Below the pieces are notes generated by a model. It saw only the letters and a program-made list of their open reading frames with translations. It was not told where the DNA came from and did no database searches. 64,000 bases of DNA from Rhizobium sp. SL42 (GTDB lineage Bacteria > Pseudomonadota > Alphaproteobacteria > Rhizobiales > Rhizobiaceae): positions 3,858,001-3,922,000 of the forward strand of contig NZ_CP063397.1 of NCBI RefSeq assembly GCF_021729845.1, read 5' to 3'. A program made the position numbers and the translations under genes. Shown piece after piece: positions 4,533 through 31,025 of this stretch; the stretch's first letter is position 1; each line of letters starts with the position of its first letter.

Positions 4533-6206
4533 ATGAGCATCCCTGCCGATATCATCATTCACAATGCACGCGTCCTGACCATGGACGACGCCATGCCGAA
4601 GGCGCAGGCGATTGCCCTCGCCGGAAACCGCATTCTGGCCGTGGGCACCGATGCCGAGATCATGACCCATTGCGCGCCCGCCACCCGGATGATCGATGCT
4701 GGTGGCGCATCGGTCCTGCCCGGCTTCAACGAAGCGCATATGCACATTTTCGGCGGCTCGGTCGGCCTCAGCCAGCTGTCGCTGATGGGCGTTAAGGGTT
4801 TTGATGCGCTTAAGGATGCCATTCGCGCCTATGCCGAGCAAAATCCCGACAAGCCCCTGCTTGAAGGACTTTATGCCGACTATACGATCCTGTCGGAGGA
4901 CGAGCGCGTCACCCGCCACCATCTCGATGCGATCATCCCCGATCGGCCCTTCGTGATGATGGCGCCGGATCGCCACACCGCCTGGGCCAACACCGCTGCG
5001 CTGAAAAAGGCCGGCATCCTGGAGGGCCGCGACGTCGGCATCGGCAACGAGATCGTGATGGGGCCCGACGGACTTGCCGCCGGCGAATTGCGCGAGACCA
5101 ATGCTTTCAGCCCCGTGATGGCACTCAGTGAAACCGGCGGACGCGAAATGCTCGGCAGCGCGACCGGCGGCGACCCGGCGCATGTAACGCCGGAGGAGCG
5201 GGCAACGGACATCGCGGTTCTGAAAAAGGGCCTCGCCTATTGCGCATCGCAAGGCATTACCTCGATCCAGAACATGGACGGCAGCCTCTACCAGCTGGAA
5301 ATGCTGCAGGAGATCGAGGATACCGAGGGCCTTCCGGTCCGCGTCCGCATGCCCTACCACATGAAGAACTTCATGCCACTCAGCGATCTGGCTGACAAGG
5401 CAGCGCTCTGGCGCGCACGCTTCAACTCAGACAAGCTGCGCTGCAACTTCGTCAAGATGTTTATGGATGGCGTGACCGAAGGCGAGACGGCGGTCTTTGT
5501 CGACGATTACAGCCACAAGCCCGGCTGGAAGGGAGAACCACTGTTTTCAGCCGAACACTTCAACGCCATTGCCGTCGAAGCTGACCGGCTCGGCCTGCCG
5601 GTCACCGTGCATGCCATCGGTGACGGCGCGGTACGCATGGTGCTCGACGGCTACGAGGCGGCGATCAACGCCAATGGCCGGCGCGACAGCCGCAACCGGG
5701 TCGAACATATCGAGGTGGTGCATCCCGACGACGTGCCACGCTTCGCGAAACTCGGCACCGTCGCCTCGATGCAACCGACCCATCCACCCGGCTCGGCCGG
5801 CCTGCCGTTGGAACCTTACCTGACCTATATCGGTGAGGATCGCTGGCAATATGCCTTCGCCTGGAAGCTTCTGGTCGATGCCGGCGCGACCATCGTCTTT
5901 GCCACCGACTGGCCGGTTTCGCCGCTCCCGCCGCTCAGTTGCATCACCGACGCGATGATCCGTGCACCCTGGCGTGACGACATGCCGGATCACCGGCTGA
6001 CTTTGGCCCAGACGCTTGCCGCCTATACGCGCACCAGCGCCTGGGTGGAGTTTATGGAAGACCGGAAAGGCCTGCTGAAAGCCGGCTATTATGCCGACAT
6101 TGTCATGCTGTCAGGTGATATCGAAATGCGACCCGTTGCCGAGATAGTCAATCTCACTCCGGTTGTTACCATCTGCGACGGCCGCATCACCTACGAGGCA
6201 CGATAG
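4533..6206 (+). CDS. Amidohydrolase, YtcJ type (second of a tandem pair)
   Basis: A 557-residue paralogue of the preceding gene, similar along its whole length, with the same signatures: HxH at 69-71, VKMFMDG, VTVHAIGDGAV, RVEHIEVVHPDD and FATDWPVSP. The ATG chosen gives MSIPADIIIHNARV, matching the start of the first copy; a TTG 30 bp upstream is less likely. The two genes look like an in-place duplication that has since diverged. The lid and substrate region after VKMFMDGV differs most (EGETAVFVDDYS against DSQTAYMLGGYG), so the two enzymes may act on different but related substrates. A TetR regulator starts 7 bp after the stop codon. Confidence 0.85.
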   Translation: MSIPADIIIHNARVLTMDDAMPKAQAIALAGNRILAVGTDAEIMTHCAPATRMIDAGGASVLPGFNEAHMHIFGGSVGLSQLSLMGVKGFDALKDAIRAYAEQNPDKPLLEGLYADYTILSEDERVTRHHLDAIIPDRPFVMMAPDRHTAWANTAALKKAGILEGRDVGIGNEIVMGPDGLAAGELRETNAFSPVMALSETGGREMLGSATGGDPAHVTPEERATDIAVLKKGLAYCASQGITSIQNMDGSLYQLEMLQEIEDTEGLPVRVRMPYHMKNFMPLSDLADKAALWRARFNSDKLRCNFVKMFMDGVTEGETAVFVDDYSHKPGWKGEPLFSAEHFNAIAVEADRLGLPVTVHAIGDGAVRMVLDGYEAAINANGRRDSRNRVEHIEVVHPDDVPRFAKLGTVASMQPTHPPGSAGLPLEPYLTYIGEDRWQYAFAWKLLVDAGATIVFATDWPVSPLPPLSCITDAMIRAPWRDDMPDHRLTLAQTLAAYTRTSAWVEFMEDRKGLLKAGYYADIVMLSGDIEMRPVAEIVNLTPVVTICDGRITYEAR

Positions 6207-6213
6207 GACACTC

Positions 6214-6921
6214 ATGAGCAGCAGGCCGCCGGACGAGGACGAGACCGCAACCAAACTGCCGCGCGGCGACGAAAGCCAGCGCGGCCGGCCGGCTGGCGCG
6301 ACCCGCAAGGGCCTTGAGACGCGTGCGCGGATCATCAAGGGCGCAATGGATGCCCTGGAGGACGGCGGCATGGGCGCGCTCACCACCCGTCGCATCGCAG
6401 AAAGCGCCGGCGTCAAGCTCGCCACCTTGCACTATTATTTCGACAGCAAGGAAAGCCTGCTGCTGGCCGTGCTCGAAGACCTGATTGCCGACATGGACAA
6501 TGCCTATCAGCGGGATGAACCCTTGCCGGAAAATCCCGAAGACCGGGTCGAGGCGCTGATCCGCGCCAGCTGGCGCTACATCCAGCACACGCGCTCCAAG
6601 CAGATCGCCCAGACGGAACTGACCCTCTATGCGCTTAGGACAAAAGGCTCCGAATGGCTCGCGGCGCGCCAGTACAATGCCTATATCGATTTTTACGGCC
6701 ATCTTGTCTTTGCCGACAACGACCAGCTCACCGGCGAGCGCTGGCGCATCGGCCGTGCCGTCGCCCGCCAGATCCTGATCGGTATCGATGGCATCATCCT
6801 GCAGAGCTACGCCCTGCAGGATCAGTCTGCCTCCAATGACGATGTCGAGGCGTTGATCATCGCCATGCGCGGCTACCTGCGCCGCATGATGGCCGACAGC
6901 AGCATGGCTGGAGAAGGCTAG
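6214..6921 (+). CDS. TetR-family transcriptional regulator
   Basis: A 235-residue TetR protein. The N-terminal helix-turn-helix is clear (ALTTRRIAESAGVKLATL followed by HYYFDSKESLL, residues about 50-80), preceded by a flexible basic RGRPAGATRKG segment. The C-terminal ligand domain is not recognised further. The ATG at this position has AGGA 5 nt upstream; a longer frame overlapping the previous gene is unlikely. It is the last gene of the transporter-hydrolase-amidohydrolase run and most likely controls that run in response to an imported compound or its product. It converges on the next gene with a 4-bp overlap of the stop codons. Confidence 0.88.
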   Translation: MSSRPPDEDETATKLPRGDESQRGRPAGATRKGLETRARIIKGAMDALEDGGMGALTTRRIAESAGVKLATLHYYFDSKESLLLAVLEDLIADMDNAYQRDEPLPENPEDRVEALIRASWRYIQHTRSKQIAQTELTLYALRTKGSEWLAARQYNAYIDFYGHLVFADNDQLTGERWRIGRAVARQILIGIDGIILQSYALQDQSASNDDVEALIIAMRGYLRRMMADSSMAGEG

Positions 6922-7757
6922 GAAAGCCTCCACAAGCGCTTCGCATTGTCGGCAAACAACGCCTGCCTGTCCTCGAGACTGACGCCGGACAACAGCGCCT
7001 GCGTCGTTGCGACCCAGGTGGAAAGCCCGCCGCCCAGCGTGCACACCGGCCAATCCGAACCCCAGACCGCGCGATCGAAACCGAAGGCTGCGATGACATG
7101 CTCGAAATAGGGCTTCATGTCATCGAGCGTCCAGTTTTCCAGATCGCCATAGGCCGGGATGCCTGAAATCTTGACGCGGACATTGTCACGCCTGGCGATC
7201 TCGCTAATGCCATCTTTCCAGACGTCATAGCCATTGCCCTTGATATCAGGAACCCCGCAATGATCGAGGATGAATGTCACGTCCGGAGCGAGATCGACCA
7301 GTGCCTTTGCCTTGTCGATCTGATGCGGCAACATGCAGAGGTCGAAGGTCAGTCCCGTGCCGGACAGGCGCTTGATGTTTTCACGAAACAGAGCGCCTTC
7401 GGAGACATCGTCAGGCACGACATGCAGCACGCGGCGGAAACCCTTGACGAAGCGATTGCCGCGCTGCTGCTCCAGATAGGCGGGGAAATCCTCCTCCTCC
7501 GGCCGGCAGGCGGCAATCACGCCCCGGATCATGTTGCCGGGCTTGTGCGAGATCGACTGTACCATCTCCGTCTCGGCTGCCATGTCGACGGCATCGACAT
7601 CGACCTCCATGTGAAGCACCGCGCTGATGCCGAGTCGGCGGGCCTCGCGCGCATAACGCTCATAGGTAAAGTCCGCGTCGAGCGCCGGCACGTCCTTCAG
7701 CCACGGATAGCGCAACCAGTCGCGATAGATCAGATGCAGATGGGTATCGATGATCAT
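6918..7757 (-). CDS. Amidohydrolase_2-family hydrolase (sugar-lactonase-like)
   Basis: A 279-residue TIM-barrel metal hydrolase. It begins MIIDTHLHLIYRDW, giving the HxH motif at residues 6-8, and has ILDHCGVPD and VWGSDWPVC segments typical of the amidohydrolase_2 family that includes L-fuconolactonase and L-rhamnono-lactonase. The ATG is preceded by GGAGGAGG with 5-nt spacing; a longer frame to 7790 has no support. Together with the SDR and the FAH-family hydrolase on the other side of the IclR gene, a lactonase role in an acid sugar pathway is plausible. This is an inference; decarboxylases also exist in this family. Confidence 0.8.
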   Translation of the reverse strand: MIIDTHLHLIYRDWLRYPWLKDVPALDADFTYERYAREARRLGISAVLHMEVDVDAVDMAAETEMVQSISHKPGNMIRGVIAACRPEEEDFPAYLEQQRGNRFVKGFRRVLHVVPDDVSEGALFRENIKRLSGTGLTFDLCMLPHQIDKAKALVDLAPDVTFILDHCGVPDIKGNGYDVWKDGISEIARRDNVRVKISGIPAYGDLENWTLDDMKPYFEHVIAAFGFDRAVWGSDWPVCTLGGGLSTWVATTQALLSGVSLEDRQALFADNAKRLWRLS

Positions 7758-7829
7758 GGGTGCCTCCTCCAAAGCGCCGACTGGCCACACGTAAACTGCC
7801 CACTGGTAAACGGCAAATTCCGCGGTGAA

Positions 7830-8666
7830 CTACTCTTGGCTCGATATGCCGGCTCCGGCAAGATCAGAAAGCCGCTTTGCGGTGGCGAGCAGGAGCTGGA
7901 TCGTGTTGGTGATATCCGGCGCACCGGGCGTGTTGATCAGGGTGATATAGGGCACCGTCAATGCGGCAATGGCCGTTCCATCGGCAATCACGATCGGTGC
8001 CGTCAGGTTGATGACGCCCGCGGTCTGGGCGCTTGGCATCATTTCGTAGCCACGCGCCACCACCTGGTTCAGCCGCGCCTCGAATGCCGGCGTCATGCGA
8101 TCGCCTTCGCCGCCGCTGCCGACATGTTCGGACACCATCATCGCCCGCGCATCCTTGCTGCGAAAGGCAAGCAGGACGTGACCGGAACCGGTGTCGAACA
8201 AGCCGACTCGGGAGCCGATCCGGATGGAAATCCCCCAGTATCCGGGCGCTTCCTGCTGGGCAATGACCACCGGGTTGCCGCGGTCATAGACGACGAGATG
8301 GTTGGCCTGGCGTGACGTCTCGCCGAGTTCACGCATCAACGGCATGGCAAACGAGGCCAGCCGGCGCGTCGGCACATGCATCTGGGCAAGGCCGAACAAC
8401 TTCAGCGTCAGTGCAAACCGATCACCGTCGAGCCGCGCCACGTAGCCACGGCGCACGAGGCGATCGAGCATGCGATAGAACTCGTTCGGACTGCGGTCCA
8501 GCCGCTTGGCGATCTCCGCCTGGGTCAAGCCGCCGTCGACACCCGCCAGCAGCTCGACGATATCGAGCCCCTTGTCGAGAGCGGGCGCCCGGTAGCGGTC
8601 TTGTTCATGCTCGGCCTCAGTCAACCCTGCCCCCTTGCAGCACTCTGCGTCTGCCATGCGATTCAT
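7830..8666 (-). CDS. IclR-family transcriptional regulator
   Basis: A 278-residue IclR regulator. The winged helix is at residues about 30-90 (LDIVELLAGVDGGLTQAEIAKRL, then a YRMLDRLVRRGYV recognition region), and the IclR effector domain follows (SRQANHLVVYDRG, then RIGSRVGLFDTGSGHVLLAF). Two ATGs lie 9 bp apart at the N-terminus and neither has a good Shine-Dalgarno sequence; the first is used here. It is divergent from the SDR gene and lies just upstream of the lactonase-like gene on the same strand, so it most likely controls both. The effector may be an acid sugar or its breakdown product. Confidence 0.87.
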   Translation of the reverse strand: MNRMADAECCKGAGLTEAEHEQDRYRAPALDKGLDIVELLAGVDGGLTQAEIAKRLDRSPNEFYRMLDRLVRRGYVARLDGDRFALTLKLFGLAQMHVPTRRLASFAMPLMRELGETSRQANHLVVYDRGNPVVIAQQEAPGYWGISIRIGSRVGLFDTGSGHVLLAFRSKDARAMMVSEHVGSGGEGDRMTPAFEARLNQVVARGYEMMPSAQTAGVINLTAPIVIADGTAIAALTVPYITLINTPGAPDITNTIQLLLATAKRLSDLAGAGISSQE

Positions 8667-8720
8667 GAATAGGTGCTTTGTCTGTGAATTAGGCTCGCAT
8701 TGGCGATCGTTTTATGCAAC

Positions 8721-8739
8721 CCATATGAACGCATATTGG
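8721..8739. promoter_or_regulatory. Candidate IclR operator (imperfect palindrome)
   Basis: In the 227-bp gap between the divergent iclR and SDR genes there is an imperfect palindrome, CCATATG-aacg-CATATTGG. It lies about 55 bp upstream of the iclR start and 155 bp upstream of the SDR start. Divergent local regulators commonly bind such a site. No other strong signal was seen in this gap. Confidence 0.35.
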
Positions 8740-8893
8740 GAGCGGCCCCGTGTTTTGCGCAGCACTGATCGAGCGGTGTGCAGGGCGGGGCGCAGGAGTG
8801 GTCGAAGGCTGGAGCCCGGAGGGGAGCGCGGGGCGGCAAGGGAGCCGCAGCTGCGTAAAATGGTTCGACCACAAGCGAGAGGACGCAAGGAAG

Positions 8894-9628
8894 ATGAGAC
8901 TACCCCTGCAGGACAAACGCGTTTTGATCACGGCCGCCGGCCAGGGCATCGGCCGCGCCAGCGCTCTGGCTTTCGCTGAGGCCGGCGCCAGTGTCGTTGC
9001 CACGGATATCAATGCCGACGCCCTGAAAAGCCTCGATGGCGAAAGGGGAATTGAGACCAGGGTTCTCGACGTGCTGAAGGATGACGCGGTGAACGCCGTC
9101 ATCGCGGCCTCCGGCCCATTCGATATCCTGTTCAACTGCGCCGGTTTCGTCCATTCGGGTTCGGTGCTCGACATGGCCGACAAGGACCTCGACTTTGCCT
9201 TCGACCTCAATGTCCGCGCCATGATCCGCACCATCCGCGCCGTCTTGCCGTCTATGCTCGAGCGGGGCGGTGGCTCGATCATCAACATGGCCTCGGTCGC
9301 AAGCTCGATCAAGGGCGTGCCGAACCGCTGCGCCTATACCGTCACCAAGGCCGCCGTCATCGGCCTGACCAAATCCGTCGCCGCCGACTATGTCACGCAG
9401 GGCATCCGCTGCAACGCCATCTGCCCGGGCACGGTCGAGAGCCCGTCGCTGCAGGATCGCATGAAGGCACAGGGCAACTACGACGAAGCGCGCGCCGCCT
9501 TCATCGCCCGCCAGCCGATGGGCCGCCTCGGCACGCCGGAAGAAATCGCCGACCTGGCCGTCTATCTCGCCGGCGCCACCTATACTTCAGGCCAGGCCTA
9601 TTCGATCGACGGCGGCTGGGGCATCTGA
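8894..9628 (+). CDS. Short-chain dehydrogenase/reductase (acid-sugar SDR)
   Basis: A 244-residue classical SDR with the NAD(P) fingerprint TAAGQGIGRA at about residues 13-22, an NCAG motif, and the catalytic S...YxxxK set (S near MASVASS, then YTVTK). The CPGTVESPSLQDRM stretch after the active site is characteristic of the DHRS6/BDH2-like group, which also includes 2-keto-3-deoxy-L-fuconate dehydrogenases. The ATG is preceded by a purine-rich GAGGACGCAAGGAAG; a much longer frame upstream is not supported. With the FAH hydrolase 96 bp downstream it fits oxidation of a 2-keto-3-deoxy acid sugar to the 2,4-diketo acid. The specific substrate is inferred from context. Confidence 0.85.
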   Translation: MRLPLQDKRVLITAAGQGIGRASALAFAEAGASVVATDINADALKSLDGERGIETRVLDVLKDDAVNAVIAASGPFDILFNCAGFVHSGSVLDMADKDLDFAFDLNVRAMIRTIRAVLPSMLERGGGSIINMASVASSIKGVPNRCAYTVTKAAVIGLTKSVAADYVTQGIRCNAICPGTVESPSLQDRMKAQGNYDEARAAFIARQPMGRLGTPEEIADLAVYLAGATYTSGQAYSIDGGWGI

Positions 9629-21802: not shown

Positions 21803-22000
21803 ATGAATTGGAATCAGGTTGAAGGCAATTGGGAACAGTTCAAGGGCAAGGCCCAGGTTCAGTGGGGCAAGCTCACCGGCGATGATCTCGATGTGGTCGC
21901 CGGCAAGCGCAAGGAACTGTCCGGCAAGATCCAAGCCGCTTATGGCAAGACCCAGGAAGAGGCCGATCGCGAAATCGACGACTGGATGAGCAAGAACTAA
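21803..22000 (+). CDS. CsbD-family stress protein
   Basis: A 65-residue hydrophilic protein beginning MNWNQVEGNWEQFKGKAQ, followed by WGKLTGDDLDVVAGKRKEL, the hallmark of the CsbD/YjbJ family. These are abundant small proteins made under general stress; their molecular job is not established. GGGAG precedes the ATG, an exact EcfG promoter lies upstream, and a perfect terminator hairpin follows, so it is a single-gene unit. Confidence 0.93.
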   Translation: MNWNQVEGNWEQFKGKAQVQWGKLTGDDLDVVAGKRKELSGKIQAAYGKTQEEADREIDDWMSKN

Positions 22001-22062: not shown

Positions 22063-22920
22063 TTATGCCGCCGTCGTTGCGCCGTAGGTGACGCCCTTTT
22101 CCTTCAGCCAGCGCCGATAGGCGATCGACGAGGCATCCGCCCGTGTCGGGATTTCCTTGCGCGGTTCAAGCGGCAGGAGAACCGGCCTCTGGTTTTCCAG
22201 AATGATCCGGTCCTGCAGGAAGATGAGCTGCTGGAAATGCACCAGTTCCGTCGTCGTCGAAACATCGTCGATCAGATACATGATCGGATGGGCCCGGCAG
22301 CGGTCCGGATCGAGCGGCTGCACGAACAGTCCGATGACATCCCAGCGCGTGTCCGAGTTCGGGCAGGTTTTGTAGAGAATGGTCGTGAATGGCGTCATCA
22401 CCCGGTACATGTACTGGGTGGTAATGCCGTCGGTTGCCGAAAATGCCGCCTGCGGCTGGAAGAACTTGCAATTCGTCGCCCAGACCTCATCGGCGTCCCG
22501 ACGGATCTCGACATCATATTGCTCGACCTCGGTGTAAGGCTCCGCGCCGAGAACATCCGTGTGCACGAAGGGAAAATGCGCCATGTCGAGAAAGTTCTCG
22601 ACGATGCGGAGACCCGACGCCTTCACCGTCACCACGCCGCACGCCACGTAGCGACGATCCGGCTCGTCGGCCTCCGGCAGCGGAAAGATCTCGCGTTCCG
22701 GATTTCCGAGCGTGGTCCAGAGGAAGCCGAAACGATGGCGCAAAGCCAGCGCCTCGGCGCGCCCCTCGGCAAACACCGCGATCGCTCCGGTCTCCTCCTT
22801 GACCACAGTCAAATCCGTGCCCAGCAGGCGATTGGACGAGCGGCCAACCGGAATGACCGCTTCGGTGTCGATCACGTACCACTGGTCGAGTGATGCTCGA
22901 TCGATTTCGCCTGCTGCCAT
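22063..22920 (-). CDS. Rieske-type oxygenase catalytic subunit lacking the Rieske core
   Basis: A 285-residue protein with the mononuclear-iron domain of Rieske oxygenases: N109-F-L-D112-M-A-H115-F-P-F-V-H120 gives the bridging Asp and two His ligands, and D237 in FLQDRIILENQRP the third. The N-terminus (LDQWYVIDTEAVIPVG, then NRLLGTDLTVVKEETGAIAVF) is that of a normal full-length enzyme. However, the CxH...CxxH cluster region is missing: VF is followed by about 13 unrelated residues and then RFGFLWTTLGNP, which normally follows the cluster domain. It therefore cannot carry its own 2Fe-2S centre. The neighbouring divergent gene encodes just that centre. The substrate is unknown. Confidence 0.82.
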   Translation of the reverse strand: MAAGEIDRASLDQWYVIDTEAVIPVGRSSNRLLGTDLTVVKEETGAIAVFAEGRAEALALRHRFGFLWTTLGNPEREIFPLPEADEPDRRYVACGVVTVKASGLRIVENFLDMAHFPFVHTDVLGAEPYTEVEQYDVEIRRDADEVWATNCKFFQPQAAFSATDGITTQYMYRVMTPFTTILYKTCPNSDTRWDVIGLFVQPLDPDRCRAHPIMYLIDDVSTTTELVHFQQLIFLQDRIILENQRPVLLPLEPRKEIPTRADASSIAYRRWLKEKGVTYGATTAA

Positions 22921-23093
22921 TCTCGTGTTCCTTCATCTGGGGAACGCGCAAATTCCGCTTGAACCCCGCTGCAACCCGCCGCTAGATTGCCCAAAAAATA
23001 GAGCGCGTACAATTGTCAGGCAACAACATTCCCCAGCCCAGCGACCGGAAAAGCAATCGCACAACCAGCGATTTCGTCTTTCGCGGGGCGATC

Positions 23094-23300
23094 ATGTCGG
23101 ACAGTTTCCTGGGTTTTGCCAGACACCGCGCCGCCCGTCTGGACCTCGCGCTGACGATCAGGACCTGCGATGCCGCCGCTTGCGAATTGACCGTCAGCGG
23201 CCCTGACCCGCTGATCGACGCCTTTGAGATGGCCGTCAGCCTCGGGCCTTACGATTGCATCATTCTCGATATTGAACGGAGGGATCATGCCCATGGCTGA
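23094..23300 (+). CDS. Small protein resembling the C-terminal half of acylphosphatase
   Basis: A 68-residue protein. The segment CELTVSGPDPLIDAFEMAVS followed by LGPYDCIILDIE resembles the last strand-helix-strand of acylphosphatases, but the catalytic VQGVGFR phosphate loop is absent, so enzymatic activity is unlikely. It overlaps the start of the Rieske protein gene by 14 bp, which implies coupled translation and a role linked to the oxygenase. The ATG was chosen over an upstream TTG because the family-like part begins there. Identity is tentative. Confidence 0.5.
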   Translation: MSDSFLGFARHRAARLDLALTIRTCDAAACELTVSGPDPLIDAFEMAVSLGPYDCIILDIERRDHAHG

Positions 23301-24000
23301 TCCGGAGATCTTTCAGATGACAGATACCACCCCTTGGGTTCCAGTCGCCCTGTCAACCTCCATCGAGCCCGCGACGTCCGCCGGCACGAGGATCGACGGC
23401 GTGGAATATGTCGTCTGGCGCGACGACGAAGGCAAGCCGCATGTCTGGGAGGATCGCTGTCCGCACCGCGGCATGCGCCTCAGCTTCGGCTTCGTGCGCG
23501 GCGACCAGATTGCCTGCCTCTATCACGGATGGCGCTACGACAGCGCCGGCCAGTGTCGCCATATTCCCGCGCATCCGGATCTCGATGTGCCCAAGACGAT
23601 CAAGGTGCCGACCTTCGCCGTTGCCGAAGCGGGTGGACTGATCTGGATGGCGCCGTCGGAAAGCGCAGACCAGCTTTCCCTGCCTGCTCTGCCCAACGAC
23701 CTTCTGTCCGTGCGCAGCCTCTATGTCGATGCCTCCCTCGAGTTCTGCCGCGATCAACTCGCCACGAATTGTCCGCCGCACATGGCCGAAATCGAAATCA
23801 GCGTGCTTTCTCCGTTCTGTCTGCAGCTCGACGCCGGGGACAAGGTCCTGGTGATCGCCCTTCAGCCGGTCGCCACCGACAGGACGGCCCTGCATGTCCT
23901 GGCCTCCGGACAGGTCTCGACGGAGGCCCGAGTCGAGCTCGCCATCTGGACGGCCGGCCTGCGCTTCATGCTCGAACACTCCTTTGCCAAGGCCGCCTGA
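23287..24000 (+). CDS. Stand-alone Rieske 2Fe-2S protein
   Basis: A 237-residue protein with a full Rieske cluster motif: C58-P-H60-R-G and C77-L-Y-H80-G-W-R-Y-D, within EDRCPHRGMRLSFGFV and CLYHGWRYDSAGQ, the oxygenase-type spacing. After residue 120 it keeps about 115 residues resembling a shrunken catalytic domain but without the N-x-x-D-x-x-H-x4-H iron site. It is best read as the electron-carrying partner of the cluster-less subunit at 22063. GGAGG lies 4 nt before this ATG and 10 nt before a second ATG. It overlaps the small gene upstream and is joined to the GST gene downstream by TGATG. Confidence 0.85.
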   Translation: MPMADPEIFQMTDTTPWVPVALSTSIEPATSAGTRIDGVEYVVWRDDEGKPHVWEDRCPHRGMRLSFGFVRGDQIACLYHGWRYDSAGQCRHIPAHPDLDVPKTIKVPTFAVAEAGGLIWMAPSESADQLSLPALPNDLLSVRSLYVDASLEFCRDQLATNCPPHMAEIEISVLSPFCLQLDAGDKVLVIALQPVATDRTALHVLASGQVSTEARVELAIWTAGLRFMLEHSFAKAA

Positions 24001-24632
24001 TGTCCTCCCTCACGCTCTATAACTACGACCTCGACGACAGCTGCTATCGCGTTCGTCTCCTGCTGTCGCTGCTCGGCCTCGAATACAAGACCATCGCCGT
24101 CGACATGCAGCCGGGCCGCGAGCAGGAACAGCCGCATATGCTGGCGATCAATCCCGCCGGCACCTTGCCGATCCTCGTCGACGGTGACCTGACGCTGTCG
24201 GGAACGGAAGCGATCCTGGCCTATCTCGCCCATGCCCATGATGCCTCCCGCCAATGGCTACCCACGCAACCCGCAGCGTTCGGTCAGGTCCAGCAATGGC
24301 TGGGATTTGCCGGCCAGCAGTTGCGGGCCGCGATCATCGCCCGCCAACAATCGCTGTTCACCCCGCAGGGTGCCGAGCCCAGGTCCGTGGCCGACGCCCG
24401 TCACGCCTTCCGCATCATGGACGACCACATGACGCTGCAGCAGATCCGCGGCCTCGAGTTCTTCGTCGCCGACAGGCCGAGCATTGCCGATGTGGCGCTG
24501 ATCGCAAGCTTTGCCCTGTCGCGCGACTTCGGTCAGGACCATGACGAGTTTCCGGCCTTGCGCCGCTGGCTGCGCCATGTCCGCAAGCTCGACGGCTTCA
24601 TCACCATGCCGGGTATCCCGGACTATCACTGA
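24000..24632 (+). CDS. Glutathione S-transferase family protein
   Basis: A 210-residue GST. The thioredoxin-like N-terminal domain is plain (MSSLTLYNYDLDDSCYRVRL, then AINPAGTLPILVDGDLTLSG with the cis-proline and the glutathione-contact SG-T-E), and the all-helical domain follows (ADRPSIADVALIASFALS). The start ATG overlaps the stop codon of the Rieske gene as TGATG, so translation is coupled. A maleylacetoacetate-isomerase-like or detoxifying role for the product of the oxygenase is possible; no specific activity can be assigned. Confidence 0.87.
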   Translation: MSSLTLYNYDLDDSCYRVRLLLSLLGLEYKTIAVDMQPGREQEQPHMLAINPAGTLPILVDGDLTLSGTEAILAYLAHAHDASRQWLPTQPAAFGQVQQWLGFAGQQLRAAIIARQQSLFTPQGAEPRSVADARHAFRIMDDHMTLQQIRGLEFFVADRPSIADVALIASFALSRDFGQDHDEFPALRRWLRHVRKLDGFITMPGIPDYH

Positions 24633-24690: not shown

Positions 24691-25647
24691 ATGACCCGCA
24701 TCGTCTTTCTCGACCGCGACACGCTTTCGCCGGAAACTCTGCTGCGGTCGCCGGCCTTTGCCCACGAGATGGTCATCCACGACCGGACGCGTCCCGATCA
24801 GGTCGCCGAGCGCATCAGGGATGCCGATATCGTCATCACCAACAAGGCGCCGGTCAAAGCCGAAGCCCTGGCCGTGGCCAGCCGCCTGAAACTGGTCGCG
24901 GTCGCCGCGACCGGCACCGACGTCATCGACCTTGCCGCAGCGAAAGGTGCCGGCGTCGCAGTCTGCAACATCCGCAACTATGCAAGACATACCGTGCCCG
25001 AGCATACCTTCGCGCTGCTGCTCGCCCTGCGCCGCTCGATCCTCGCCTATCGCCAATCCGTCCTCGACGGCCGCTGGCAGGAGGCCGCACAATTCTGCTT
25101 CTTCGATCATCCAATCGCCGATCTCGGCGGCTCGACGCTCGGCATCATCGGCCACGGCACGTTGGGCCAATCCGTCGGCCGCATCGCCGAGGCCTTTGGC
25201 ATGACGGTCCTTGTTGCCGGCCGGCGCGGTTCGGATGCACTGAAACCCGGCCAGACCGCCTTCGACGATGTCATGCGCCGCGCCGATGCTATTACCCTGC
25301 ATTGCCCGCTCAACGCCGAGACGCGCGGCATCATCGGCGCGCGCGAATTTGCCCTGATGCAGAAGAAGCCGCTGATCATCAACACCGGCCGCGGCGGCCT
25401 CGTCGATGAAACGGCGCTGGAACAAGCCCTCGACAAGGGCCAGATCGCCGGCGCCGGCTTCGACGTCACCGATGGTGAACCACCGGCGGCAGACAGTCCG
25501 ATGATGCGCATTGCCAGCCGCTCCAACGTCATCCTGACGCCGCATGTCGCCTGGGCGAGCCGCGAGGCGATCCAGGCGCTGGCAGACCAGCTGATCGAGA
25601 ATATCGAACTCTTCATCGCCGGCACCCCGTGCCATCTCGTCGGGTAA
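24691..25647 (+). CDS. D-2-hydroxyacid dehydrogenase (HprA-like)
   Basis: A 318-residue NAD-dependent 2-hydroxyacid dehydrogenase. The substrate domain has AVAATGTDVIDLAAAKGAGV, the Rossmann motif is GIIGHGTLGQSV, and the catalytic Arg-Glu-His set is visible in NTGRGGLVDE, GAGFDVTDGEPP and LTPHVAWAS. The closest described forms are glycerate/hydroxypyruvate reductases. CAGGAGG lies 7 nt before the ATG. It is 58 bp after the GST gene and probably ends the Rieske-GST operon, so it may handle a 2-keto or 2-hydroxy acid formed downstream of the oxygenase. Confidence 0.87.
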   Translation: MTRIVFLDRDTLSPETLLRSPAFAHEMVIHDRTRPDQVAERIRDADIVITNKAPVKAEALAVASRLKLVAVAATGTDVIDLAAAKGAGVAVCNIRNYARHTVPEHTFALLLALRRSILAYRQSVLDGRWQEAAQFCFFDHPIADLGGSTLGIIGHGTLGQSVGRIAEAFGMTVLVAGRRGSDALKPGQTAFDDVMRRADAITLHCPLNAETRGIIGAREFALMQKKPLIINTGRGGLVDETALEQALDKGQIAGAGFDVTDGEPPAADSPMMRIASRSNVILTPHVAWASREAIQALADQLIENIELFIAGTPCHLVG

Positions 25648-26845: not shown

Positions 26846-28255
26846 TCACTCGATCTCATACGGCATCGGGTTGCGCACCCGGTGATCCACCACCAGCTTC
26901 CGCTTCAGCGGCGGCACGGCGCGGCTGGTGCATGTGACCCGTTCGCAGATCCGGCAGGAGATGCCGATCGGATCATAGGCAGCGCGGTTCGAAAGATCGA
27001 GATCGTCGGCATAGACGAACTGGTCGGCATAGGAAATCTCGCAGCCGAACGCCAAGGCGTAGCGCGGCTGGGCGGCGCGAAATCCGGCTGAGCCTTTCGA
27101 CACCTGGGTGGCAATGCAAAGATAACGCACGCCGTCCGGCGTCTCGGCAAGCTGGCGATTGATCCGGCCAGGCGTCTCGAAGGCCTGGTGCGCATTCCAC
27201 AGCGGACAGGCGGCACCGAACCGGGCAAACTGCAGCCGCGCCGCGCTGTGGCGCTTGGTGATATTGCCGGCCCGGTCGATACGGGCGAAGAAGATCGGCA
27301 CGCCCTTCAGCCCCGGCCGCTGCAGCGTCGACAGCCGGTGACAGACCTGCTCCAGCGAGGCGCCGAACCGTGCGGCGATCAGCTCGATATCGTGGCGCAA
27401 TTCGCGGGCCGCCTGATGGAAGTTGCGATAGGGCAGGATCAGGGCGCCGGCGAAGTAGTTGTGCAGGCCCATGCGACAGATCTCGATCGCTTCATCGGAT
27501 CGAAAACTTGCCTGCTTCAACACGGCGTCAATCTTTTCGGCAGCGTGCAGCTGGGCAATCTGGACGGCAATATGGAAATCGCGGGTCGGCGCCGACGCGT
27601 AGCGGCTGACCGTCAGGATGCGCCCGACCGGATCAAACCGGCGGATCGCCTCGTCGCCCGCCTCGCCGCGCACCACGCGCACGCCATGCCGGCTTTCGAG
27701 ACAGCCGTTCAGCGCCGCATGGTTTTCCCCCTCGCCCAGCTTCAATTCGATCGCCAGCGCTTCGGCGGCCAGGTCGAGCTCGTGAATGTAGTTGTCGACG
27801 AAATGGAAGAAGTCGCGCACTTCGTCATAGGGTGTGGCTTCCTGGGCCGGCGCCGATCCCAGCCGGTCGTCGAAACTCGCCAGCTGCTCGTTGCCACGGC
27901 GATAGGCCTGATGCGCCGCGATCAGGGCATGCGCCATGCCCGGCGCATTCTGCGTCACCAGCTTCAGCTCCTGCAGGCTGGGCGCATAGGTCTCGAACAG
28001 GGGATCGGACAACGCCTCGGTCAAGGCGGACAGCAGCCGGTCGTTCTGGCCGGAGGAGAGTTCCGTGATGTCGATGCCGAACTTTTCCGCCAGTGCCAGA
28101 AGCACCGCGGCCGATACCGGCCGCTGGTTGTTTTCGATCTGATTGAGATAGCTTGTCGAAATGCCGATCATGTCGGCAAACTGCGCCTGCGTGGCGCTGC
28201 TTGTCTGGCGGATTTCGCGGACCTTGCGGCCGATGAAGAGTTTTCCTATGGCCAT
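26846..28255 (-). CDS. Short-chain fatty acyl transcriptional regulator (ScfR/PccR family)
   Basis: A 469-residue XRE-type regulator. The helix-turn-helix is at residues about 10-65 (KVREIRQTSSATQAQFADMI, then GISTSYLNQIENNQRPVS). The central region has the IrrE/DUF955-like domain, and the C-terminus carries conserved cysteines (SCRICERVTC), as in the ScfR family. In Rhodobacter sphaeroides the homologue PccR activates propionyl-CoA carboxylase genes. Here it is divergent from pccB, and repeats resembling the known TTTGCAAA site lie between them. The ATG giving MAIGKLFIGRK was chosen over one 15 bp upstream that would lie within the repeats. Confidence 0.9.
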   Translation of the reverse strand: MAIGKLFIGRKVREIRQTSSATQAQFADMIGISTSYLNQIENNQRPVSAAVLLALAEKFGIDITELSSGQNDRLLSALTEALSDPLFETYAPSLQELKLVTQNAPGMAHALIAAHQAYRRGNEQLASFDDRLGSAPAQEATPYDEVRDFFHFVDNYIHELDLAAEALAIELKLGEGENHAALNGCLESRHGVRVVRGEAGDEAIRRFDPVGRILTVSRYASAPTRDFHIAVQIAQLHAAEKIDAVLKQASFRSDEAIEICRMGLHNYFAGALILPYRNFHQAARELRHDIELIAARFGASLEQVCHRLSTLQRPGLKGVPIFFARIDRAGNITKRHSAARLQFARFGAACPLWNAHQAFETPGRINRQLAETPDGVRYLCIATQVSKGSAGFRAAQPRYALAFGCEISYADQFVYADDLDLSNRAAYDPIGISCRICERVTCTSRAVPPLKRKLVVDHRVRNPMPYEIE

Positions 28256-28301
28256 TTCGCAAATTCGCAATATTCAGTTTGCAAATTCATAAATCCGCAA
28301 T
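28256..28301. promoter_or_regulatory. ScfR operator array between scfR and pccB
   Basis: Four related 8-mers lie within 46 bp: TTCGCAAA (28256), TTCGCAAT (28264), TTTGCAAA (28278) and TCCGCAAT (28294). TTTGCAAA is the half-site reported for PccR of Rhodobacter sphaeroides. The array begins immediately at the scfR start codon and ends 108 bp before pccB, so one regulator could control both directions, with autoregulation by occlusion of its own ribosome-binding region. Confidence 0.7.
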
Positions 28302-28408
28302 TGCACCTGTTCAATCATTTTCTTTGCCAGCAATGCAGTTTAAGGCTCAGATATCAGGCGCAAAGCCAGCCTTCTTCACCGGGGGGCGTTCTTCAATCGG
28401 GGGGATAG

Positions 28409-29941
<1,533 letters not shown>

Positions 29942-30104
29942 GGTGACCGAATGCCGATGGTCGTCAAACACAGGTCGCTGAATAAAATTGAACGATGATT
30001 GAAAAGCGATATCTGCCGAGGCAAACCGAATTTCAGGTTCTATATATGCCTGCCATGTGCGCGTCATCCCGCATGCGCATCGACGAAACCAAGGACCGTA
30101 TTTC

Positions 30105-31025
30105 ATGACCGAGAAATCCCCCGCCGACAATTTCCCCGCAGGCTATGTGCCCCCGAAGGTCTGGACCTGGGACAAGGGCAATGGTGGCGCCTTTGCCAGC
30201 ATCAATCGCCCGACCGCAGGCGCGCAGGTCGAGAAGGAACTGCCAATCGGCAAGCACCCGCTGCAGCTCTATTCACTGGCCACGCCGAACGGCCAGAAAG
30301 TCACGATCCTGCTCGAGGAACTTTTGGCCGCCGGCCACACAGGCGCGGAATATGACGCCTGGCTGATCAAGATCGGCGATGGCGACCAGTTCGGCTCAGG
30401 CTTTGTCGAGGTCAATCCGAACTCCAAGATCCCCGCCCTGATGGACCATGCCCCGAAGGATGGCGGCAAACCGATCCGCCTGTTCGAATCCGCCTCAATC
30501 ATGACTTACCTGGCGGAAAAGTTCGGCGCCTTCCTGCCGACGGACGTGCGCGCCCGCGCCGAGACGTTGAACTGGCTATTCTGGCAGATGGGCTCCGCCC
30601 CCTTCCTCGGCGGCGGCTTCGGCCATTTCTATGCCTATGCGCCGATCAAGATCCAGTACGCGATCGACCGTTATGCCATGGAAGTGAAACGCCAGCTCGA
30701 CGTGCTCGACCGCCATCTCGCCGACAACCAGTTCATGGCAGGCTCTGACTATACGATCGCCGACATGGCGATCTGGCCCTGGTACGGCAAGATCGCACTC
30801 GGCCAGGCCTATGGCGATGCCGGCACCTTCCTCGACGCCGCAAGCTACGAGAACGTGCTGCGCTGGACCAACGAAATTGCCGCCCGCCCGGCCGTCAAGC
30901 GCGGCAGCATCGTCAACAAGACGTCCGGTGAACTGGCCGAACAGCTGCATGAGCGCCACGACGCCTCCGACTTCGATACGAAGACACAAGACAAGATCGC
31001 CCAGCCTACCCAGAAGACGGCGTAA
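30105..31025 (+). CDS. yghU: Glutathione-dependent disulfide-bond oxidoreductase, YghU type
   Basis: A 306-residue Nu-class glutathione transferase. The N-terminal KVWTWDKGNGGAFASINRP and the KHPLQLYSLATPNGQKVTIL stretch match YghU closely, including the TPNGQKV active-site segment that binds two glutathiones. An ESASIMTYLAEKFG helix and a C-terminal helical domain follow. The ATG giving MTEKSPADNFP is preferred to one 48 bp upstream. It acts as a disulfide reductase in the cytosol. It sits inside the pcc cluster without an obvious metabolic link. Confidence 0.9.
   Translation: MTEKSPADNFPAGYVPPKVWTWDKGNGGAFASINRPTAGAQVEKELPIGKHPLQLYSLATPNGQKVTILLEELLAAGHTGAEYDAWLIKIGDGDQFGSGFVEVNPNSKIPALMDHAPKDGGKPIRLFESASIMTYLAEKFGAFLPTDVRARAETLNWLFWQMGSAPFLGGGFGHFYAYAPIKIQYAIDRYAMEVKRQLDVLDRHLADNQFMAGSDYTIADMAIWPWYGKIALGQAYGDAGTFLDAASYENVLRWTNEIAARPAVKRGSIVNKTSGELAEQLHERHDASDFDTKTQDKIAQPTQKTA

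Follow-up and report, generated by a model that had tools for sequence, protein, structure and literature searches.

Two neighboring genes in a 64,000-nucleotide stretch of the Rhizobium sp. SL42 genome (contig NZ_CP063397.1, positions 3,858,001 to 3,922,000; this whole stretch is called the window, with position 1 its first letter) encode what look like complementary halves of a Rieske oxygenase. Protein A keeps the catalytic iron site and lacks the iron–sulfur cluster; protein B keeps the cluster and lacks the iron site. An ordinary alpha subunit carries cluster and mononuclear iron on one chain, and neither A nor B does. Altogether, the best explanation is that A and B are probably two subunits that together make up a single NdmCDE-type Rieske oxygenase. 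The initial annotation, made from the letters of the window, had already proposed complementary halves, and that proposal is well supported by the co-occurrence of the two genes, by their conserved metal sites, and by the alpha-subunit folds predicted for both in single-chain models.

In Pfam, A matches VanA_C (PF19112), with KshA_C marginally below its cut-off. The chain begins with a degenerate Rieske base domain (predicted strands at about 15–69) without the cluster-binding part, followed by a complete mononuclear-iron domain with N109, D112, H115, H120, and D237. The initial annotation had named these five ligands correctly, and the CxH...CxxH block is missing where it placed the gap, between VF (residues 49–50) and RFGFLW (residues 63–68). 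The five ligands are invariant in 52 aligned A sequences (window counted). Among the fetched loci, the split-type frames, which match A at more than 151 bits, number 146 (from 126 loci, with 132 distinct cores, some genomes having been fetched twice). All 146 lack a CxH-(12–22)-CxxH block and all keep NxxDxxHxxxxH; CxH and CxxH both occur somewhere in six of them, but without the Rieske spacing. The 11 frames matching at 61–151 bits have the block and are full-length oxygenases. Loss of the cluster block in A is old and common to its relatives. A deletion confined to this strain was looked for and not seen: an equal gap is present in relatives from many separate assemblies. A sequencing or assembly deletion, for which we found no favorable point, is ruled out by this shared gap. 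Among PDB entries, A matches NdmA and NdmB, and its best solved matches by sequence and fold are SxtT and GxtA.

In protein B, Pfam detects only Rieske (PF00355). The cluster motif is of the oxygenase type given in the initial annotation (C58-x-H60, 16 residues, C77-x-x-H80) and is invariant in 35 aligned sequences (window counted). The shrunken second domain without an iron site, also claimed there, is seen in the predicted model (about 135–237) as a shortened domain of the catalytic type, and no iron ligands occur in it. Compared by sequence with the PDB, B matches the oxygenases SxtT, GxtA, and NdmA best (92 to 67 bits, vs. 27.5 bits for the best ferredoxin), and SxtT and GxtA are again the best solved matches by sequence and fold. 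Rieske-type ferredoxins are short, single-domain proteins (103–115 amino acids, or aa, for those matched in the PDB by the B search), whereas B has 237 aa and a second predicted domain.

The two genes occur together. In a draw of 151 Rhizobiaceae genomes (the window's own included, completeness of at least 90 asked for), a relative of A (E 1e-25 or better) is found in 29 genomes and a relative of B (E 4e-25 or better) in the same 29, spread over 24 genera; independent occurrence was looked for and not seen. All 29 pairs lie on one contig and within 9 kb. The next match to B (E 7e-20) is a frame of 375 aa, the size of an ordinary oxygenase. The Rieske frame is free in 19 of the genomes (216–269 aa) and fused, as in NdmD, in the other 10 (591–853 aa). 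Two A-type genes accompany one B of the free kind in six of the 19 free-type genomes. Of 398 genomes drawn across the phylum, 23 have A matches (15 split-type and eight full-length oxygenases), and the B partner lies inside the fetched stretch for all 15 split-type genes. Over all fetched loci, B is present at 87 of the 126 with a split-type A.

The gene directly downstream of B encodes a protein of the glutathione S-transferase (GST) family and is the clearest pointer to NdmCDE; the initial annotation mentions neither this gene nor the small one just ahead of B. Where the flank is long enough, GST adjoins B at all 46 free-type loci and all 17 fused-type loci (45 of 45 and 17 of 17 after removal of identical B cores). 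A small gene between A and B is nearly as constant in the free type, where it adjoins B at 43 of 46 loci (42 of 45 without identical cores; the exceptions are L092, L113, and L130), and it was not found beside any of the 17 reductase-fused forms with enough flank, with or without that removal. A profile of 15 of these small proteins matches acylphosphatases best (2fhm, E 5e-4). Against PF00708, seven of the 15 match at E up to 1 (best 4e-4); for the window member, no Pfam match was found. Judged by eye, other residues stand at the position of the acylphosphatase catalytic arginine. This acylphosphatase-like gene (68–97 aa; in the window and in L081–L083, L104, and L107) marks the free-Rieske class.

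In the caffeine-degrading NdmCDE enzyme of Pseudomonas putida CBB5, NdmC is a nonheme iron oxygenase without a Rieske cluster, which sits instead on NdmD, fused to the reductase; the GST-like NdmE is required, with a structural role that is only postulated, and the complex acts as a 7-methylxanthine N7-demethylase (PMC4408171). The same 2015 review already notes homologous clusters in Sinorhizobium and Mesorhizobium. The structure of NdmCDE is unsolved according to a 2026 note (PMC13237722). The present system shares with NdmCDE a catalytic subunit without Rieske cluster, an oxygenase-type Rieske domain on a different, nearby-encoded protein, and a GST-like partner. In addition, A falls in one clade with the NdmC-like protein of Paraburkholderia caffeinilytica (the NdmC, NdmD, and NdmE labels for that record are ours, from organism and gene order). 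It differs in that the Rieske protein is free, whereas NdmD is fused to a flavin/NADH/ferredoxin reductase, and in having the acylphosphatase-like gene and divergent A and B genes.

Other oxygenases are close in part. In the chlorophyllide a oxygenase of Micromonas pusilla, as Kunugi is said to have found in 2013, the cluster is on one chain and the iron on the other. We know of no GST partner for that enzyme. It resembles A/B in being split over two chains and differs in its algal origin and its substrate, chlorophyllide, a distinction drawn from its description. A heterodimer or a trimer of dimers was suggested for it, and it is active with the foreign reductase VanB (PMC9615114). SxtT and GxtA, the best solved matches of both halves, have both metal sites on one chain, as do the full-length oxygenases of another proteobacterial family (L093–L099), which share 36%–46% identity with the two halves where they match and show no GST match in 10-kb stretches. 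A split Rieske oxygenase is a known kind, and the initial annotation, which knew of no description of the architecture, is not borne out on this point: NdmC/NdmD/NdmE embody the same idea (PMC4408171), and the Micromonas enzyme is also two-chained (PMC9615114).

The descent of the halves was followed in quick trees, with only 7–10 full-length rows. For the A trees, frames open at the stretch end were dropped, 156 frames were thinned to 106 at 90% identity, and 29 rows with no B gene shown at the locus were left out. Set against the full-length rows, the split-type A proteins group as a single clade in both A trees (SH-aLRT 97 and 99), and the Rieske halves form one clade as well (support 97). 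In the first A tree (77 rows), the fused forms are one clade (88) and the free forms need two changes; in the second (74 rows, without the full-length rows L100, L084, and L101), the free forms are one clade (92) and the fused forms need two changes, with the fused held together not rejected (p-AU 0.655). In the B tree (62 rows, 120 columns), the free forms are one clade with a support of only 50, and the fused forms as one clade are not rejected (p-AU 0.753). A single change between free and fused forms suffices in these trees, which leave the order of the two undecided. In five of the 10 fused-type family genomes, the match to B extends to residue 204–224, through most of the second domain, a hint that NdmD, too, may contain an iron-less alpha subunit as its extra Rieske part. 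Simple cutting of one gene in two appears less likely than duplication followed by reciprocal loss, because a remnant of the other domain is still present in the model of either half. For B, the test of that remnant from sequence is weak and tempers the duplication reading: with hhalign, its C-terminal part matches A plus the full-length rows at a probability of 2.2 (P 0.021) and the full-length rows alone at 0.1 (P 0.49).

A and B would both descend from an SxtT-like alpha subunit, A having lost the iron–sulfur part and kept the catalytic iron, and B having kept the cluster, lost the iron site, and shrunk its catalytic domain. The cluster of B would dock where the cluster of the neighboring subunit lies in an ordinary alpha3 ring, and electrons would pass from it to the iron of A by way of the conserved Asp112; we take the bridging role of Asp112 from other members of the family. 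Such transfer between the A and B subunits is plausible because ordinary Rieske oxygenases normally move electrons across a subunit boundary, the donating cluster and the receiving iron belonging to different subunits (PMC12445004). The GST protein may hold the pair together, as postulated for NdmE (PMC4408171), and a reductase encoded elsewhere would supply the electrons. The reaction would be an oxidative N-demethylation (for example, of methylated guanine) or a ring hydroxylation, upstream of guanine or 8-oxoguanine deaminase.

Several points weigh against a two-subunit enzyme acting on purines. We infer the A–B complex, the structure predictions covering single chains, and a three-membered ring cannot evenly alternate two subunit types. 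By sequence, the resemblance of the C-terminal part of B to the catalytic domain is weak; the homology therefore leans on the predicted model, and that model may itself lean toward folds familiar to the predictor. At 39 of the 126 split-type A loci, no B occurs in the fetched stretch (mostly 6 kb on each side, not searched further out), and at 30 no purine gene does. The 16 loci of the window's own subgroup (the window and its copy L086 counted) lack purine genes within the stretch, and the window's genome offers, as its best match to guanine deaminase, a protein of only 36% identity.

One alternative makes B a diffusing Rieske-type electron carrier for A, and perhaps for other oxygenases, with no stable alpha/alpha′ assembly and with a C-terminal domain that is a stabilizing remnant. 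The small size and separate gene of B would suit a carrier, as would the presence of one B with two A-type genes in some genomes and the fast change of its C-terminal half (18%–57% identity to the window over 34 relatives, with one exception at 79%, vs. 40%–92% for the Rieske half). Yet a whole alpha-subunit fold is predicted for B, its matches to oxygenases far exceed that to a ferredoxin, and a GST gene stands beside it at all loci with enough flank; we regard a carrier as unlikely. That A and B are leftovers of a decaying oxygenase, without joint function, would agree with the loss of one metal site in each, but the frames are open, the ligands of the remaining site are invariant, and co-occurrence is complete in 29 genomes of 24 genera, which makes decay very improbable.

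The same two-subunit enzyme could hydroxylate a ring carbon of a purine (for example, guanine to 8-oxoguanine) instead of removing a methyl group. In relatives, A often adjoins a guanine deaminase (TIGR02967, above cut-off in L081) and in several clusters an 8-oxoguanine-deaminase-like gene (NF006055, above cut-off in L012 and below it in L082, 365 vs. 532), and these deaminase-bearing clusters also have a BMP-type ABC importer; the 8-oxoguanine-deaminase-like neighbors speak for hydroxylation, as do BMP-type importer genes in seven of the eight stretches with full-length relatives. On the other side, NdmC, the nearest characterized relative by architecture, is an N-demethylase, the PDB matches of A include NdmA and NdmB, and 27 of the 126 loci have, within limited stretches, a guanine deaminase without an 8-oxoguanine-deaminase-like gene. 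Hydroxylation is a real but lesser possibility; both reactions fit, and we make no firm choice.

For the two-subunit enzyme, a purine base would be the most likely substrate. At least one purine gene match (deaminase or importer) is found at 96 of the 126 split-type A loci, which are not duplicate-free. None of the deaminase or importer queries used finds a match in the window; in the window's subgroup, a D-2-hydroxyacid dehydrogenase gene takes the place of the purine genes. The window's A is 81%–82% identical to A proteins adjoining guanine deaminase (L011, L018), and this identity makes a similar substrate likely. Genes for BMP-type ABC importers also adjoin the L093–L099 oxygenases; the association with the importer is therefore older than the A/B split or parallel to it. 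A conserved block is seen in L081, L107, L108, L115, L116, L122, L126, and L132: it comprises a LysR regulator, two sulfopyruvate decarboxylase-like halves of a thiamine pyrophosphate enzyme (below cut-offs), a GMC oxidoreductase, and an amidohydrolase, and ends, except in L081, in a second A-type gene.

The window shows no match to the reductase part of NdmD; other reductase families were not searched. Within that scope, the earlier remark that no reductase gene is nearby stands. The genome has three NdmD-type matches, all far from the window: a GbcB-like one (below that model's cut-off, beside a Rieske-containing frame), BenC, which passes its cut-off, and a flavohemoprotein-like frame of 704 aa, which does not. 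A dedicated reductase was not found in the genome by this NdmD-based search. A separate NdmD-type reductase gene occurs in L092 and L058, which show the kind of reductase with which the free form can occur. In L092, at about 6051–9073, genes follow one another for a free Rieske half, for a catalytic half in which little of the N-terminal domain is present, for GST, and for the separate NdmD-type reductase; this row may correspond to ndmCDE in unfused form.

The features of the locus are given in Table 1. The 3′ end of the small gene overlaps the start of B, and the GST gene overlaps the stop codon of B by one base. GGAGGG precedes the candidate ATG of B at 23287, whereas most aligned relatives start at the residue equivalent to the ATG at 23317; the frame of B measures 261 aa from stop to stop. 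The true start of the small gene is uncertain, relatives extending further upstream. Elsewhere in the window, 26846–29941 encodes a protein of the short-chain fatty acyl-CoA regulator type (PF09856 above cut-off, the RamB model below), and the gene facing it presumably encodes a carboxyl-transferase subunit. The short protein at 21803–22000 looks like a CsbD stress-family member, and the product of 30057–31025 resembles a second GST.

Table 1. Genes and intergenic region around the A/B pair (window positions)
Feature	Position	Strand	Remarks
Protein A gene	22063..22920	-	285 aa, catalytic half
Gap between divergent A gene and small gene	22921..23093	.	presumed divergent promoters
Small gene, acylphosphatase-like	23094..23300	+	68 aa as written; accompanies free-Rieske class
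Protein B gene	23287..24000	+	237 aa (227 aa if started at 23317), electron half
GST-family protein gene	24000..24632	+	210 aa; NdmE counterpart by family and position
D-2-hydroxyacid dehydrogenase gene	24691..25647	+	318 aa; after GST in the window's own locus subgroup

We tentatively propose, as a less than even possibility, that a duplicated alpha subunit lost its metal sites reciprocally to give a catalytic alpha and an electron-delivering alpha′ shared by one or two catalytic partners; that NdmD (an iron-less alpha′ plus reductase) has in the free form and its acylphosphatase-like helper either a parallel or an ancestor; and that rhizobia use the system to supply guanine and 8-oxoguanine deaminases with purine bases, perhaps methylated guanine. 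In the openly licensed literature searched, mostly listings and abstracts, we found no description of a free-type pair or of a Rieske methylguanine demethylase. Within that literature, the following is new: a Rieske half that stands free and is apparently an iron-less alpha subunit; its companions, of which the GST is constant and the acylphosphatase-like protein nearly so; genomes in which a single Rieske half occurs with two catalytic halves; and, in related clusters, a connection with guanine breakdown. The free version matters since the NdmCDE structure is unsolved (PMC13237722) and the structural role of its GST protein is only postulated (PMC4408171). A small free Rieske half present in many rhizobia would be a simpler system for following how a cluster feeds an iron site between subunits. 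Guanine deaminase genes in the context of A also suggest that root bacteria use purines by a route of which we found no description in the literature searched.
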